Positions 19,660-39,276 of a DNA stretch of 64,000 nucleotides are shown here, piece after piece. The position numbers were made by a program, and so were the translations under genes. The DNA lies in the NCBI GenBank assembly GCA_003242085.1, contig QBML01000017.1:1-64000 (forward strand), in the 5' to 3' direction. Below the pieces are notes generated by a model, which ran no database searches, was not told where the DNA came from, and saw only the letters and a program-made list of their open reading frames with translations. This DNA comes from Pseudanabaena frigida. Its GTDB lineage: Bacteria; Cyanobacteriota; Cyanobacteriia; Pseudanabaenales; Pseudanabaenaceae. Numbering within the stretch: the first letter of the stretch is position 1; every line of letters starts with the position of its first letter.

Positions 19660-20145
19660 TTAGCTCAAGCCAGAGCTGATGTAGTCAAGGTATACACCCA
19701 ATTCTTTACCAGCTTCAGATCCAACGATGCTAGCAGCAACTTCTTTGATTGCTTGGATAGCTTGGATGGTGGAAACTACAGGTACTCCAAGGGAGTTGTA
19801 GGTTTCTTTCAAGCCATTGAGTACGCGCTCATCAAGAATAGAAGCATCACCAGCAAGCATTGCATAGGTTGCATAGCGCAAGTAGTAGTCGAGGTCGCGA
19901 ATACAAGCTGCATAGCGACGGGTGGTGTACATGTTTCCGCCGGGACGGGTAACATCAGAGTACAACAAGGACTTAGCAACAGCTTCTTTAACGATAGTTG
20001 CAGAATTTGCAGAGATAGCCGCAGATGCACGAACGCGGAGTTCGCCAGTTGCAAAATAGCTCTTTAGCTTTTCTAGAGAAGCGGAATCAAGGTATTTACC
20101 TTGGACATCAGAAGAATTGATGACGGAAGTAATTGCGTCTTGCAT
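19660..20145 (-). CDS. apcB: allophycocyanin beta subunit
   Basis: A 161-aa phycobiliprotein beta subunit of the phycobilisome core. Cys 81 in [14 protein letters not shown] is the phycocyanobilin attachment site, and Asn 71 in PGGNMY is the residue normally N-methylated. Length and ends ([19 protein letters not shown]) are typical. It lies 124 bases downstream of apcA in the same operon. The ribosome site is weak (AAAAGAT). Confidence 0.97.
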
Positions 20146-20269
20146 TTTTGTATATCTTTTAGGTTTGCAATTAGTTTTTTGAATTAGGGATTCAGGATTC
20201 TGAATAGCTTAAATTCTGTTTTTAAAGACAATCGGCTTGAGAACAATCCGATAAAGTTCAGAAATCGCC

Positions 20270-20755
20270 TTACTGCATTGCACCGATGACATAGTCAAAG
20301 TAGTAACCAGCTTCGGCTGCATCTTCACCAGACAACAAGGAAGCGGCTGCGCTCTTCAGACCACGTATACCTTCGGCAACACCAGGAATAGGAGTACCTA
20401 AAGAGTTGTACATTTCCTTAACGCCGACTAGACCGATTTCTTCGATAGGGGTGACATCACCAGAAACAACTCCGTAGGTTACTAAGCGGAGGTAGTAATC
20501 GAGGTCACGCAAGCAAGTTGCTGTCATTTGTTCGCCGTATGCATTTCCACCAGGAGAAACTACATCAGGACGCTTTTGGAAAAGTTGATCGCCAGCTTGT
20601 TTAACGATGCGCTCGCGGGATTCGGTCAAGGTTTGGGCAATGCGAAGACGACGCTCACCAGAGCTTACAAAGCCCTTAATGCGATCTAGTTCACCAGGGC
20701 TGAGGTAACGTGCTTCAGCATCTGCATTCACGATGGACTTCGTGACTACGCTCAT
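20270..20755 (-). CDS. apcA: allophycocyanin alpha subunit
   Basis: A 161-aa core phycobiliprotein (starts [20 protein letters not shown]) with bilin-binding Cys 81 in [11 protein letters not shown]. It forms the alpha-beta heterodimer with ApcB. GGAG about ten bases before the ATG is the ribosome site. The core-membrane linker gene apcE, often directly upstream in other cyanobacteria, is absent here; a TMEM14-like gene lies 252 bases upstream, leaving room for a long apcA leader and strong promoter. Confidence 0.97.
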
Positions 20756-26255: not shown

Positions 26256-26990
26256 ATGACTCTGCAAACAGACATTAATAGCGCCGCCGCAGAACTTAAG
26301 GGAAAAACTCCTCAAGAAGTTCTCACATGGTGTCTCGGTAACTATTCAAAGATCGCGCTCGCTTCTAGTTTTGGCGCAGAAGACGTAGTGCTAATCGATA
26401 TGATGGCAAAAATTCGTTCTGATGCCCATGTCTTCACCCTTGATACGGGTCGTTTAAACGCTGAAACCTATGAAGTAATCGCGAAAGTACAGCAAAAATA
26501 TCCTCAACTTCAATTGCAAATTATGTTTCCACAAGCTGAAGCAGTGGAGCAAATGGTTAGCGAAAAAGGAATTAATCTGTTCTATGACAGTGTCGAAAAT
26601 CGTAAGCAATGTTGTTATATTCGTAAGGTCGAACCGCTTAGTCGAGCTACTAAAGGTCTTGATGCATGGATTACAGGGCTACGTCGCGATCAAACAGCTA
26701 ACCGTTCTACGATGGAAACCGTTGAGCTAGATGGCGATCGCAATATTGCAAAAATCAACCCTTTGATCGATTGGTCAAACGAACAAGTTTGGGAATACAT
26801 TCGCGCGAATGATGTTCCCTACAATGCTCTCCACGACCAAAATTTCCCAAGTATTGGTTGTGCGCCTTGTACTAGAGCGATTCAACCAGGTGAAGATTTG
26901 CGTGCTGGTCGTTGGTGGTGGGAGATGAGTAATCAAGAATGTGGATTGCACGTCACGAGCGATGGTAGATTAGTTCGCGCTAAAGGCTAG
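26256..26990 (+). CDS. cysH: phosphoadenylyl/adenylyl-sulfate reductase
   Basis: A 244-aa reductase of assimilatory sulfate reduction that makes sulfite from activated sulfate. The nucleotide-binding SSFGAED loop (about 38-44), LDTGRL, and the catalytic ECGLH (Cys 229) are present. It also has Cys 119-Cys 120 (RKQCCYIRK) and Cys 202/Cys 205 (GCAPCTR), the four ligands of a [4Fe-4S] cluster. That set is typical of enzymes using adenylyl sulfate (APS), while classical PAPS reductases lack it, so APS may be the real substrate. Single gene with its own terminator. Confidence 0.92.
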   Translation: MTLQTDINSAAAELKGKTPQEVLTWCLGNYSKIALASSFGAEDVVLIDMMAKIRSDAHVFTLDTGRLNAETYEVIAKVQQKYPQLQLQIMFPQAEAVEQMVSEKGINLFYDSVENRKQCCYIRKVEPLSRATKGLDAWITGLRRDQTANRSTMETVELDGDRNIAKINPLIDWSNEQVWEYIRANDVPYNALHDQNFPSIGCAPCTRAIQPGEDLRAGRWWWEMSNQECGLHVTSDGRLVRAKG

Positions 26991-34389: not shown

Positions 34390-35901
34390 ATGTCTTGGCG
34401 CTTCTTTGTTCTGGTAGCCTTAGCATTTACGATTTCCCTGGGGAGGGAACCATTATCTAGTTATGCTGAATCCATTGCCCAATCATCAACGCAAATCACA
34501 CCTAGTTTGCGTGTGGATTACTTTAATCGTGCTTTGGCGAAACAGAACAGAGGAGATAATAATGGTGCGATCGCTGACTACAATGAAGCTATTCGACTCA
34601 AGCCTGACTATGTTGATGCCTACCTCAATCGCGGCACTGCAAAGTCTGATTTAGGAGACAAGAAAGGCGCGATCGCCGATTACACCGAAGCTATTCGCCT
34701 TAAACCTGATTATGCTGGAGCTTACTCCAACCGAGGAGTAGCAAAGTCTGATTTAGGAGACAAGAAAGGTGCGATCGCCGATTACAACGAAGCTATCCGT
34801 CTTAAACCTGACTATGTTGACGCATACATCAATCGCGGTAATGCAAAGTCTGATTTAGGAGATAAGAAAGGCGCGATTGCCGACTACACAGAAGCCATCC
34901 GTATCAACCCTAAAGATTATGAAGCTTTCTATGGTCGTGGGGACGTAAAGTTTCATTTAGGTGACAAGAAAGGTGCGATCGTTGACTACACAGAAGCCAT
35001 CCGCATCAAGCCTGATTATGTTGATGCTTACCTTAATCGCGGTAATGCAAAGTTTTATTTGGGAGATAAGAAAGACGCGATCTCCGATTATACAGAAGCT
35101 ATCCGACTAAAACCTGACTATGCTGCTGTCTATTTGAATCGCGGGAATGCGAAGTCTGATTTAGATGATAATAAGGGTGCGATCGCCGACTACACAGAAG
35201 CCATCCGCTTGCAACCTAAAGATTATGAACCCTACTTCAACCGAGGGTTAGCCAAGTCTTATTTAGGAGATAAGAAGGGCGCGATCTCTGACTATGCGGA
35301 AGCTATCAGGCTAAAACCTGACTATGCTGATGCATACAGCAATCGTGGATTAGCAAAGTTTGATTTAAATGATGCAAAAGGGGCAATCACTGATTACAAC
35401 GAAGCCATCCGTATTAATCCAGACTTTGCTGAAGTCTATGCTCGTAGAGGAGCGGCAAAGTCTAATTTAGGAGACAAAAAGGGAGCGATCGCTGACTACA
35501 CAGAAGTTATTCGACTCAATCCTAAAGATGATGATGCTTACTTCAATCGTGGGTTATTAAAGTCTGATTTAGGAGATAAAAAGGGAGCGATCGCCGACTA
35601 TACAGAAGCAATCCGTATCAGTCCTGAGACTGCGTTTAATTATGATTTTCGGGGAGTAGCGAAATATGATTTGGGCGACTATCAAGGTGCAATCGCGGAC
35701 TACAATGAAGCCGTGCGGCTAATGCCTAATGCGGCTGCACCTTATTTACATCGTGGTCTATCAAAGAAAGCTTTAGGAGATCGGCAGGGAGCATTAGCAG
35801 ATTTGCAAAAAGCAGCACAACTATTTCAAAAGCAGGGACAGATAGACAAGTATCAAGCGGTTCTCAAAAGTATTGCTGAAATACAAAAGGCGCTTCAATA
35901 A
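34390..35901 (+). CDS. secreted tetratricopeptide-repeat protein
   Basis: A 503-aa protein: a signal peptide or anchor (about 1-30), then about thirteen consecutive TPR units of 34 residues from residue 38 to near 490. The consensus is AYxNRGxAKSDLGDKKGAIADYTEAIRLKPDY, repeated with few changes, so the DNA is a 102-base tandem repeat and may vary in number. TPR arrays bind other proteins; no catalytic domain is present. The target is unknown. It faces the degenerate ATPase gene tail to tail with only seven bases between. Confidence 0.85.
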   Translation: MSWRFFVLVALAFTISLGREPLSSYAESIAQSSTQITPSLRVDYFNRALAKQNRGDNNGAIADYNEAIRLKPDYVDAYLNRGTAKSDLGDKKGAIADYTEAIRLKPDYAGAYSNRGVAKSDLGDKKGAIADYNEAIRLKPDYVDAYINRGNAKSDLGDKKGAIADYTEAIRINPKDYEAFYGRGDVKFHLGDKKGAIVDYTEAIRIKPDYVDAYLNRGNAKFYLGDKKDAISDYTEAIRLKPDYAAVYLNRGNAKSDLDDNKGAIADYTEAIRLQPKDYEPYFNRGLAKSYLGDKKGAISDYAEAIRLKPDYADAYSNRGLAKFDLNDAKGAITDYNEAIRINPDFAEVYARRGAAKSNLGDKKGAIADYTEVIRLNPKDDDAYFNRGLLKSDLGDKKGAIADYTEAIRISPETAFNYDFRGVAKYDLGDYQGAIADYNEAVRLMPNAAAPYLHRGLSKKALGDRQGALADLQKAAQLFQKQGQIDKYQAVLKSIAEIQKALQ

Positions 35902-35908
35902 ATTACTC

Positions 35909-37915
35909 TTAACTCGTTTTGATTAGCTCTTGCACCCAAAAAACAGCAGTAGCACTGAGAATGGCGATCGCCCATTCACTTCCATTTAGAGGAACAGTTG
36001 CCATAAGATCGCCAAACCAAGGTACTTGTACAAAGATAATTTGAAATACTGCGATAAAGGAAATACCAAGTAGGAGCGGTAAATTACTGAAAACACTTTG
36101 TCTTGCGATCGCGCAGGCATGGAAAATTTGGCTAAAGCCAAGGGTTACAAATGCCATTGCTCTGGCTTGGGAAAACATCGAGGCTTGACCCTGATATTTC
36201 AACCAAAAGACTAGAGAGATAGCAGCGATCGTGGCGGTGACAGCTAGCAAAATACGCAGGTAATTACTAGGTCGCAACATGGTTTGAAAGCGGTGAGCAG
36301 GTTGGGATAGCAGGCTTTCGTGAGTGGGTTCTAGAACTAAGGGAAAGGCAACCACAGGTGTAGCGATCGCACCAATCCAGAGCAATTGGAGCGGCGGCAT
36401 TGAGAAACCTGCGGCGGTATCCATGAGGGTGAGAACCGCTAAGGTAAAGGAGCTTGTCGCAGTTAATAAAGCAATACGTTGCAGTCGATCAAAAATAGCG
36501 CGACCTTCGAGAATAGCGATCGGTATATAATGGAAGTCTTCCTTAGGTAAAATCAGCCCTGAACTATCTTGTAATTCTTTACGACAGCTGCGATCGCAAA
36601 TTCCTACATCCGCAGTTCGTAATAGCGGAATATCTTCAACATCATTGCCAATTATCGCGATCGCATTCATTGACTTGCGCCGATCTCCTTGCCATAGTCG
36701 AATTCGTTCTTGTGGCGCATCAAAATAGCTGTGAGTCTCAATGCCAATCACTTCGCCAAATGACTGAGCATCTGCTTCAGAGGCACGAATCAGAGCTTTC
36801 CATTCAATACCTCCACGACTTAAATTGTCAAAACTTAACACCAAATCTGACTCCACAATTGGCACAATTGTAGTCACTCTAGCCATTGCGTCTAAAACTG
36901 AAGGAAACCTCGCCCATAGTCTTTGTTTGACAAGATCGCGCATTCCAAATAATTGAACCTGCGTAGCAATGCGTAGTAGATTTTGAGGATAAGTACTAAG
37001 CATTAAAGCAGCGGCTGTCATCGCGTTGATAGTAATCCCACGTTGCCACGCAAAACAGATCGCAACAGTAGTTACTAGTATCAAAAGCCCAATCCATACT
37101 TGTCGAAGTTGACGCAATTCTGAATGCATTGCTGAAAATGGCTTCTCTTTAACTAGCGCTGCTTGTTCTTGCGTGGAGCGTCCTGTAGCAATTACGATTC
37201 CCTTAACTGTTCCTGATGAGATTTCCGTCCCTGCAAATATCATATTGCTACATTCGAGCGGGGGCGTTTTTTCTTCCAATGTGAATTCTGCTTGTTTAGG
37301 GCAAATCGCTTCACCGCCCAAATTAGTTTGATTTACGACCAAGTCTTCTGATGTCTCAAGAATCCGTAAATCCACAGTTGGACGATCACCTTCTCTCAAT
37401 ATCAGTACATCACCGATGACCAAGTCCCTTAATGGCAGTTCCATTTCTTCGCGATCTCGAATTACAGTTACAGAATTCGATGGATTGTTTTGACGACGTT
37501 GAGGGCGCTCGCGACTAACTTTTTCTCTAGTTTTAACCGACCATAAAGAGATGCCTATGCCAATTGCTGCATGTAATCCCCCCACAAGGAGCAGCGCCCA
37601 CCCTTCGGCTCCATTCCATTGCAAATAGATTGCCGAACCTAAGAGAATATAAGTCAAAGGATCGACCCAAGGCTTTAACAGGATTTTACTAATTGGGCGC
37701 GATTGCGGGATTTTGTTAACTCCTAAATATCGCAATCTTTGACGCGCATTCACATAGGACAAACCTTCTGTAGAAGACTCCAAAGCCGCTAATGTTTGCT
37801 CTACATCCATGTAGTGCCAAGGTCTTTGGGTGTCCGACAGAAAGTCAAATTTTGTCATAATGCGATCCTTGAGGCTTCTTTCAACATCTAAAGCTTCGAC
37901 TTCTTCCGCTAGCAT
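35909..37915 (-). CDS. degenerate P-type ATPase (predicted inactive)
   Basis: A protein of up to 668 aa (a start at residue 20, MTKFDFLSD, is also possible) with the layout of a P2-type cation ATPase: N-terminal domain (WHYMDVEQTLAAL...GLSYVNARQRL..LGVN), membrane helices, an actuator domain (about 145-255) and a C-terminal membrane domain. The essential motifs are gone. The phosphorylation motif DKTGT, expected near residue 355 after MARVTTI, is replaced by VPIVESDLVLS; TGE reads LGGE (199-202); GDGVNDAP reads GNDVEDIP (423-430); PEGL reads YPQNLL. The nucleotide-binding domain is reduced to a remnant. The frame is long and intact, so it is probably expressed as a non-pumping protein. The next gene on the strand is a membrane coiled-coil protein. 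Confidence 0.8.
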   Translation of the reverse strand: MLAEEVEALDVERSLKDRIMTKFDFLSDTQRPWHYMDVEQTLAALESSTEGLSYVNARQRLRYLGVNKIPQSRPISKILLKPWVDPLTYILLGSAIYLQWNGAEGWALLLVGGLHAAIGIGISLWSVKTREKVSRERPQRRQNNPSNSVTVIRDREEMELPLRDLVIGDVLILREGDRPTVDLRILETSEDLVVNQTNLGGEAICPKQAEFTLEEKTPPLECSNMIFAGTEISSGTVKGIVIATGRSTQEQAALVKEKPFSAMHSELRQLRQVWIGLLILVTTVAICFAWQRGITINAMTAAALMLSTYPQNLLRIATQVQLFGMRDLVKQRLWARFPSVLDAMARVTTIVPIVESDLVLSFDNLSRGGIEWKALIRASEADAQSFGEVIGIETHSYFDAPQERIRLWQGDRRKSMNAIAIIGNDVEDIPLLRTADVGICDRSCRKELQDSSGLILPKEDFHYIPIAILEGRAIFDRLQRIALLTATSSFTLAVLTLMDTAAGFSMPPLQLLWIGAIATPVVAFPLVLEPTHESLLSQPAHRFQTMLRPSNYLRILLAVTATIAAISLVFWLKYQGQASMFSQARAMAFVTLGFSQIFHACAIARQSVFSNLPLLLGISFIAVFQIIFVQVPWFGDLMATVPLNGSEWAIAILSATAVFWVQELIKTS

Positions 37916-37947: not shown

Positions 37948-39276
37948 TTATTTTGCTGATTGTAATAACTTCAACTGCTGTTGCACTTGAAGTTTAACTT
38001 CTTGAGCCTTTAAATAGACCGTAGTGCCATTAGAAATTTTCTCTAAATCATTATTGATCGCTATAAAATTAGCGATCGCTTTGTTTTTATTTAAGTCTTT
38101 GCCATCTTTTGGCAAACTTGCCCAGAGAGTCGTAAGTTTTTGATTAGCGAGATCGATCGATTGAACTGCTTCTTGTTCATTCTTGAGACGAACTCGCACT
38201 TCCGAAAGACTTGCTCGATATTCTACTAGACGTCTTTGAGCTTCAGGATAGCTTTGAATATCTTCAGCTGTAATTTTTTCTAGGCGTTGAATAGCTTCTT
38301 GCCACATTGAGGCAATTTCAGTCCAGCGAGCGCTTGTATGCGGAGGATTACGTCCAGTTTCGGCGGCTTTTTTGGCAAATTCTTCGGCTGCACCAAGTAG
38401 TGACCCTACCTTCTCATTGCCGACAGAAAGCCCCGCCATTGCCCTTAAATCTCTAGTAGAAGTACTAATCAACTGTTGCGCCTTCCGCCCAGCCATTGTT
38501 TGCGGTGGAATCTGGTTGAGGCGATCGATTGCTGCTTGCCAGTTTTGGACGGCAGATTTCTTCTCAATCGGCGAAGAATTTTGCTGAAGCTGAGCCTTTG
38601 CCATGATTACCTCTTTTTCAACATCCGTCAGGGCAATCTGAGCATTCTTTTCTTGAAATACCTTTGCTTCTAGCTGTCCAACTTTTACCCGCGCTCCTTG
38701 TAATGCCGCAGGCGAAAATTCCCAACCATATCCCCAATAGCCTCTCGAATAGTCAGCCCAGTCCGCAACATACGAGACAGGAATCGAATCCAAAGCACTT
38801 TTGCCTTCCTTAAGCTTTATCTCGCCACGATCTAAGTCGGCTGGACTGGTTGGGGATTCGATTAACTGACGCGCTTCTTCAACAGTTGCTTGTCCTTGTT
38901 TGAAATTTGCTTCGATCGCCATGTTACTAGGCAGTAGCAAAAGTGGTGCATTCTTGGCGACGGGTTGCCGAATCACAGGATAGGGTAAGTTCAGCACATA
39001 AATAACGCCTACAGGAATCCCCACCAAAACTCCAATCCAGATTAGTCTTCTGCCAAATTTCTGCAAGCCCGAATTTTGAGTAGGAGCAACTTGTGACGAT
39101 CTCGTCAGTTCAGTTTCTAACTCTGTATATCGTTGTATTGCCGAACTCTGGGGGGGGTTAGTCGTTGAAGTTGCTGGCGCTGAGCCTTGGTTTTGAATAG
39201 TTTGCACATCTGGATCGTTTCCCACCCCCTGCTGCGGATTTTTCTTTTTCGCGAACATTGAATTAGTAATGCCCAT
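37948..39276 (-). CDS. unrecognised single-span membrane protein with coiled coils
   Basis: A 442-aa protein with no family I can name. A polar, Gln/Ser/Thr-rich N-terminus (1-75) is followed by one membrane helix (about 78-98, RLIWIGVLVGIPVGVIYVL) and a large helical domain (about 120-440) rich in Gln, Ala and Lys, probably coiled coil or repeat helices. A conserved-looking ADWADYSRGYWGYGWEFSPA stretch (about 178-197) with many aromatic residues interrupts it. It lies 32 bases upstream of the degenerate ATPase on the same strand, so the two are probably co-transcribed and may form a complex. Function unknown. Confidence 0.7.
   Translation of the reverse strand: MGITNSMFAKKKNPQQGVGNDPDVQTIQNQGSAPATSTTNPPQSSAIQRYTELETELTRSSQVAPTQNSGLQKFGRRLIWIGVLVGIPVGVIYVLNLPYPVIRQPVAKNAPLLLLPSNMAIEANFKQGQATVEEARQLIESPTSPADLDRGEIKLKEGKSALDSIPVSYVADWADYSRGYWGYGWEFSPAALQGARVKVGQLEAKVFQEKNAQIALTDVEKEVIMAKAQLQQNSSPIEKKSAVQNWQAAIDRLNQIPPQTMAGRKAQQLISTSTRDLRAMAGLSVGNEKVGSLLGAAEEFAKKAAETGRNPPHTSARWTEIASMWQEAIQRLEKITAEDIQSYPEAQRRLVEYRASLSEVRVRLKNEQEAVQSIDLANQKLTTLWASLPKDGKDLNKNKAIANFIAINNDLEKISNGTTVYLKAQEVKLQVQQQLKLLQSAK

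Follow-up and report, generated by a model that had tools for sequence, protein, structure and literature searches.

A P2-type ATPase homolog that has lost its catalytic and cation-site residues is conserved in a cyanobacterial order

The window analyzed here, a stretch of 64,000 nucleotides from Pseudanabaena frigida, contains on its minus strand an ORF of 668 codons (35909-37915) that encodes a homolog of P2-type ATPases, here called the pseudo-pump. As the original prediction had stated, the frame is open throughout, with neither frameshift nor stop, but its first 19 codons (37858-37915) are absent from orthologs and probably do not belong to the gene. Because the orthologs of the genus begin at the Met of codon 20 (MTKFDFLSD...), the start is most likely at 37858, and the probable coding sequence spans 35909..37858 (649 amino acids plus stop). 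Pfam models matched the N-terminal region (Cation_ATPase_N, 47.7 bits), the A domain (E1-E2_ATPase, 79.1 bits) and the C-terminal helices (Cation_ATPase_C, 92.7 bits), each above its cut-off, which bears out the predicted retention of the N-terminal, actuator and membrane domains. No hydrolase or nucleotide-binding-domain Pfam model was matched at E-values up to 1. Eight further P-type ATPases above the Pfam cut-off were found in the same assembly (longest ORFs 728-978 amino acids), and its four P2/P3-type pumps carry both DKTGT and GDGxND.

Upstream of the pseudo-pump and in the same direction lies a gene for a 442-amino acid protein (37948..39276, minus strand), which had no Pfam match above the cut-off and no NCBIfam match at all; by eye, it has one likely membrane segment. 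A long TPR-repeat gene (34390-35901) converges on the pseudo-pump; in genome G031 (L057) a TPR gene also adjoins it, and in G013 (L050) one stands near it. The PAPS reductase gene cysH is found on the plus strand at 26256..26990, 9 kb from the pseudo-pump. Further away, two ORFs of 161 amino acids (19660-20755) resemble allophycocyanin subunits by eye.

We aligned 30 full-length orthologs and compared them with the genome's own active pumps; reference positions are named by SERCA numbering, and motifs by their general meaning in P-type pumps. Catalytic and cation-site residues were replaced in all 30 sequences, with single exceptions at some positions. The motifs quoted in the original prediction (VPIVESDLVLS, LGGE and GNDVEDIP) are all present in the window protein. 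The phosphorylation motif DKTGT reads IVESD (residues 334-338, 36845..36859, minus strand, as are all motifs given here), and the position of the phosphorylated Asp is occupied by Ile (27 sequences), Val (2) or Leu (1), never by Asp. This loss is common to 30/30 orthologs, and a sequencing error was rejected as its cause. The TGE loop of the A domain is replaced by GGE (residues 181-183, 37310..37318): the Thr position is Gly in 29 sequences, Ser in one and Thr in none, the Glu position is Glu in 23 and Asp in 5, and TGES reads GG[ED] in 28/30. In the P domain, TGD has become IRA (residues 357-359, 36782..36790), or [IL]R[AT] across the orthologs with Arg358 invariant (30/30), and the hinge GDGVNDAP reads GNDVEDIP (residues 404-411, 36626..36649), with no Asp in any of the 30 at the Asp703 position, the first Asp of GDG. 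Two features bear on a residual enzymatic function: the Asp707 position is nearly invariant (29 sequences), and the Lys684 position is basic in 26/30. Between the phosphorylation motif and the TGD equivalent the N domain is missing, and approximately 10 residues join the two halves of the P core. Thus, the predicted loss of the nucleotide domain was correct, but it had been described as partial: the N domain is wholly gone, and the structural model described below retains the strands of the P core.

The losses extend to the cation site in M4-M6, an addition to the catalytic losses noted originally. In M4, V-P-E-G-L-P-A of the active pumps corresponds to Y-P-Q-N-L-L-R (residues 290-296, 36971..36991), and the orthologs have P[QK][NQ] followed by two hydrophobic residues and R. 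The Glu309 position (residue 292) is Gln in 29/30 and Lys in 1/30, never Glu, and the next position is never Gly. Beside this old site, Arg296 (the Ala313 position) is present in 30/30, such that an acidic ligand was lost and an Arg gained. In M5, Ser, Ala or Leu occupies the Asn768 position, and Leu the Glu771 position (29/30, with a gap in the remaining sequence). In M6, NLVTDG of the genome's pumps is replaced by GAIATP (residues 496-501, 36356..36373) with loss of the Asn and Asp ligands, Asn796 being Gly496 in 30/30 and Asp800 being Thr500 in 29/30 and Met in 1/30. No ATP use is expected because the N domain and the nucleophile are missing, and Ca2+ binding like that of its relatives is not expected because the acidic residues of M4-M6 are missing. 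We infer that the protein can neither hydrolyze ATP nor pump.

The original prediction had proposed that orthologs with the same lost motifs would indicate a new family, and such orthologs proved widespread. The pseudo-pump was identified in 34/38 genomes of the order (as sampled, the same 38 genomes as the family) and in 7/8 genera, Pseudanabaena and its relatives. At E≤1e-60, one match per genome was found in 31/38, that of G430 being truncated where its contig ends; when the remaining seven genomes and G430 were searched less strictly, the three genomes of genus g2 yielded a divergent form. No pseudo-pump was found in G006 (82% complete), G030 (77%) and the two g3 genomes, G027 (99%) and G034 (85%). 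A partial match in G030 was rejected because it appears to be an ordinary pump truncated by the end of its contig. Within the genus, 24 of the 25 genomes other than that of the window carry the pseudo-pump, G006 being the exception. All 29 aligned orthologs (29/29) are full-length, intact ORFs; outside this set, the frame appears split in the draft genomes G429 and G430.

Beyond the order, we searched 386 genomes of the phylum (E≤1e-40, three candidates scored per genome) and found full-length matches in only four, all of this genus; four other matches, which look like ordinary pumps, cover the front half of frames of 914-970 amino acids. A contig scan with two peptide patterns yielded 24 distinct loci, 20 of which belong to the pseudo-pump family (47-92% identity), the named relatives being Pseudanabaena species and cyanobacterial MAGs. 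The other four were weaker matches (24-28% identity), and the three that were checked (L087, L089 and L090) carry DKTGT. Neither the 386 genomes nor the contig scan gave a clear pseudo-pump outside the order, although a form as divergent as that of g2 would escape both.

The g2 proteins are shortened and fast-evolving (loci L197 1991-3751, L198 2213-3949 and L199 1880-3633): they comprise 579 amino acids in G033 and 587 in G026, and in G429 the frame appears split, perhaps through a draft error or the onset of decay. Both intact g2 proteins carry Asp where the phosphorylated residue would be, with nothing else of DKTGT left; M4 reads WHWW or WHWQ in them, and one of them retains Arg296. In a phylogenetic tree of 52 sequences (FastTree), all pseudo-pumps, including those of g2, group together in a single clade (support 1.0), which emerges among P2/P3-type pumps on a long stem; g2 branches first, and the root on this stem is weak. 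The simplest account is that catalysis was lost once, ahead of the radiation of most of the order. Given the Asp of the g2 sequences, the nucleophile may have gone later than the N domain.

Selection was estimated with a pairwise maximum likelihood codon model for the 60 genome pairs most similar in their P2A pump, of which 59 remained after a near-identical pair was dropped. The median dN/dS of the pseudo-pump was 0.085 (range 0.058-0.135), compared with 0.063 (0.039-0.147) for the P2A pump in the same pairs. Single pairs from g7 (dN/dS 0.091, 2dlnL 400) and g2 (0.178, 2dlnL 215) likewise indicated purifying selection. When seven segments were analyzed using 12 chosen pooled pairs, with bootstrap ranges over sites, all were far below 1 (2dlnL 137 to 744, values inflated since the pooled pairs share genomes). 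A slowly decaying pseudogene would agree with the shorter, more divergent g2 forms and their higher dN/dS (one pair), and with the split frames apparent in drafts G429 and G430, but the ORFs intact in all aligned orthologs, the retention across 7/8 genera and dN/dS far below 1 in every segment and in the single g2 and g7 pairs make it extremely improbable. As a general account, a lone or decaying pseudogene is refuted by the orthologs and dN/dS together: purifying selection is strong, relaxed selection is excluded, and the gene is kept, as had been predicted.

The segments were not constrained alike. In the phosphorylation segment, dN/dS over matching residues was 0.006 [0.000-0.025] in the pump versus 0.074 [0.033-0.126] in the pseudo-pump, and in the remaining P core 0.052 [0.028-0.071] versus 0.076 [0.054-0.104]. 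For the A domain, the ranges were apart (0.085 [0.056-0.115] in the pseudo-pump, 0.039 [0.024-0.050] in the pump). M3-M4 (0.058 [0.033-0.092] versus 0.046 in the pump) and M5-M6 (0.074 [0.046-0.127] versus 0.045) were near the pump values, with overlapping ranges, and M7-M10 was also similar (0.136 versus 0.117). M3-M4 had the lowest point estimate within the pseudo-pump, its range overlapping those of other segments. Thus, constraint was lifted most at the former site of chemistry and partly in the A domain, which had served that chemistry, and was retained in the membrane core; since the A domain is looser than that of the pump, the coupling unit is not wholly held at pump level.

Homology to Ca2+ pumps spans both halves of the protein (SPCA1 at 4.7e-44). 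An AlphaFold2 prediction from orthologs alone was poor (pLDDT 51.2), and one from 19 orthologs and 30 other pumps reached pLDDT 86.3 and pTM 0.81; this model is a consistency result, because the input pumps pull the prediction toward their own fold. It consists of an A domain, a P core of six strands and ten long membrane helices, of which M4 is broken around residues 290-293. Compared with SPCA1 in the E1 state, it gave Z 37.1 and rmsd 7.9 over 619 aligned residues, and the best Foldseek E-value was 2.3e-30. The comparison with Ca2+-ATPases that had been proposed ended in a predicted SPCA1/SERCA-like fold minus the N domain. With the P2A Ca2+-ATPases (SPCA1/PMR1, SERCA and bacterial LMCA1), the pseudo-pump shares descent and fold, including the N-terminal region, A domain, ten helices and P core; unlike them, it is without N domain, phosphorylation Asp and TGES, and its cation ligands are replaced.

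The nearest described case is TMEM94/ERMA of the human endoplasmic reticulum, whose pump activity is disputed. Its architecture is likewise P-type, its motifs are degenerate and TGES is missing, and no ATPase activity was detected in one study (PMC12134183). Another group, in the available part of its report, describes Mg2+ transport or uptake dependent on an Asp (PMC13322241). According to these sources, the latter again in its available part, TMEM94 keeps an N-like domain and the Asp of DKQGI, whereas the bacterial pseudo-pump has neither (PMC12134183, PMC13322241). An enzyme with a diverged mechanism, as claimed for ERMA/TMEM94, might nevertheless be considered here, given the P-core strands kept in the model, the Asp707 and Lys684 positions described above, the Asp of the g2 forms and the report, in the part available, that the DKQGI Asp of ERMA is essential without TGES (PMC13322241). 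However, with Ile, Val or Leu at the nucleophile position in 30/30, no N domain, and neither TGD nor the first Asp of GDG left, such an enzyme appears very improbable. Apicomplexan guanylate cyclases are described as placing a P-type ATPase fold beside a signaling function, similar to the use proposed here, but theirs is a fused eukaryotic P4-ATPase domain. P6 ATPases such as CtpE are described, in the part of a 2023 P-type ATPase review available to us, as lacking the Asp in TM6, like the pseudo-pump, and as pumps keeping PEGL in TM4, whereas the pseudo-pump has YPQNLLR in M4 and has lost catalysis (PMC10654040). The same part of that review contained no bacterial pseudo-pump (PMC10654040). 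Open-licence PMC literature gave no bacterial pseudo-P-type ATPase among the matches listed, in which the disputed TMEM94 appeared.

The only pointer to a pathway, absent from the original prediction, came from the neighborhood of cysH. This gene is directly upstream of the pseudo-pump and on the same strand in g2 (three genomes), g5 (one) and g6 (one), the two being separated by -13 to 23 bases as judged from the match limits; before cysH, g2 and g5 have a pentapeptide-repeat gene. The two genes are 8-12 kb apart in the window genome, three other Pseudanabaena and the g4 genome, and 82 kb to 2.6 Mb apart in six more Pseudanabaena with both on one contig; in the remaining 18 pseudo-pump genomes they are on separate contigs. 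In G027, the g3 genome mentioned above, genes other than the pseudo-pump follow the pentapeptide-cysH pair. The adjacency of cysH and pseudo-pump was probably ancestral and later broken up in Pseudanabaena, which suggests a link to sulfate assimilation. Cotranscription with cysH is not required, because neighbors changed repeatedly in Pseudanabaena and cysH lies at least 82 kb away in 6/10 genomes of the genus with both genes on one contig. A fixed operon with the gene for the 442-amino acid protein was rejected, as the two are adjacent in 10/16 loci of the genus and 0/4 outside it. We also rejected a general cyanobacterial operon of cysH and a transporter: in 21 loci outside the order and G027, read by eye (close relatives share neighbors), no gene within 1.5 kb downstream of cysH was common among families. 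Two genes, read by eye as ArsR-like and as encoding a putative SulP permease of 569 amino acids, follow the pseudo-pump on the same strand in G002 and G021. Separately, in both g7 genomes (L234 4951-8201, L235 3036-6358) cysH and a P2A pump gene are arranged tail to tail, so that cysH adjoins a P2-family gene in a fourth genus too.

These observations bear on the main alternative to a regulator or scaffold, a passive permease, channel or lipid/anion handler on the pump fold, in which the Arg site in M4-M6 would take an anion (e.g., a sulfur oxyanion) or a lipid. SulP proteins carry bicarbonate too, and the SulP identity of the 569-amino acid protein is itself a by-eye reading; the Arg might be a mere built-in counter-charge filling the old site, and it is kept in only one of the two intact g2 forms, whose M4 has diverged. 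Consistent with an anion or lipid are the invariant Arg296, Gln292 in 29/30, the change of the M5 Glu to Leu, the absence of any acid at the M4 and M6 ligand positions, the lowest dN/dS estimate in M3-M4, and cysH as a neighbor together with the ArsR-like and putative SulP genes of two genomes. A further parallel is TMEM94, for which a pump fold without detected ATPase activity was argued to favor anion entry and a lipid-shaped density was described (PMC12134183). On balance, we give this alternative only a modest chance.

The pseudo-pump could also form a hetero-oligomer with an active P2 pump of its own cell, as a dominant-negative or stabilizing partner. Pseudoenzymes often regulate active paralogs, and a close relative of the genome's P2A pump was found in 38/38 genomes of the order; but this co-occurrence is uninformative because the P2A pump is also present where the pseudo-pump is absent. 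Another P2-type pump tested was present in only 18/38, and among the genes identified in 20 neighborhoods no pump gene stood beside the pseudo-pump. A partner of this kind appears unlikely.

With moderate confidence, we favor a role in the membrane as a non-catalytic regulator or scaffold, built on the pump fold without an ATP site, perhaps in sulfate assimilation; the sensor, scaffold or regulatory-subunit role proposed originally is of this kind. On this view, a P2-type ATPase lost the domain that binds ATP, the cation ligands and the chemistry of phosphorylation, and its product persisted as a folded membrane protein of ten helices that retains the A domain and the core of the P domain. The way constraint is distributed points to a functional membrane core that is coupled to folded cytosolic domains, and therefore to a likely ligand- or partner-binding regulator or scaffold, in which the retained A/P/M4-M6 coupling unit would bind the ligand or partner. 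Its ancestral place behind cysH would make sulfate assimilation a possible setting. Points against this regulator or scaffold are the absence of the pseudo-pump from both g3 genomes, the looser A domain, the repeated changes of neighbors in Pseudanabaena, and the Asp707 and Lys684 positions, which bear on a residual enzymatic function. A bolder proposal, to which we assign a small chance, is that this order-specific, N-domain-less pump-fold family is a sulfur-linked receptor or anion handler, its M4-M6 site rebuilt on the Arg and the near-invariant Gln, and that its ancestral cotranscription with PAPS reductase served to link the reduction of sulfate with a signal or flux at the membrane.

Although pseudoenzymes are common in the kinases, non-catalytic P-type ATPases seem to have hardly been described. 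Retention throughout an order without N domain and nucleotide site would imply that the A/P/M4-M6 unit is useful beyond ATP-driven transport, and the pseudo-pump offers a small bacterial system in which such use could be tested. Automatic naming can mislead here: the window protein passes the general P-type ATPase model of NCBI (TIGR01494, 65.3 bits with a cut-off of 62.3), whereas the g8 ortholog L034 (37.5 bits) falls below the same cut-off.
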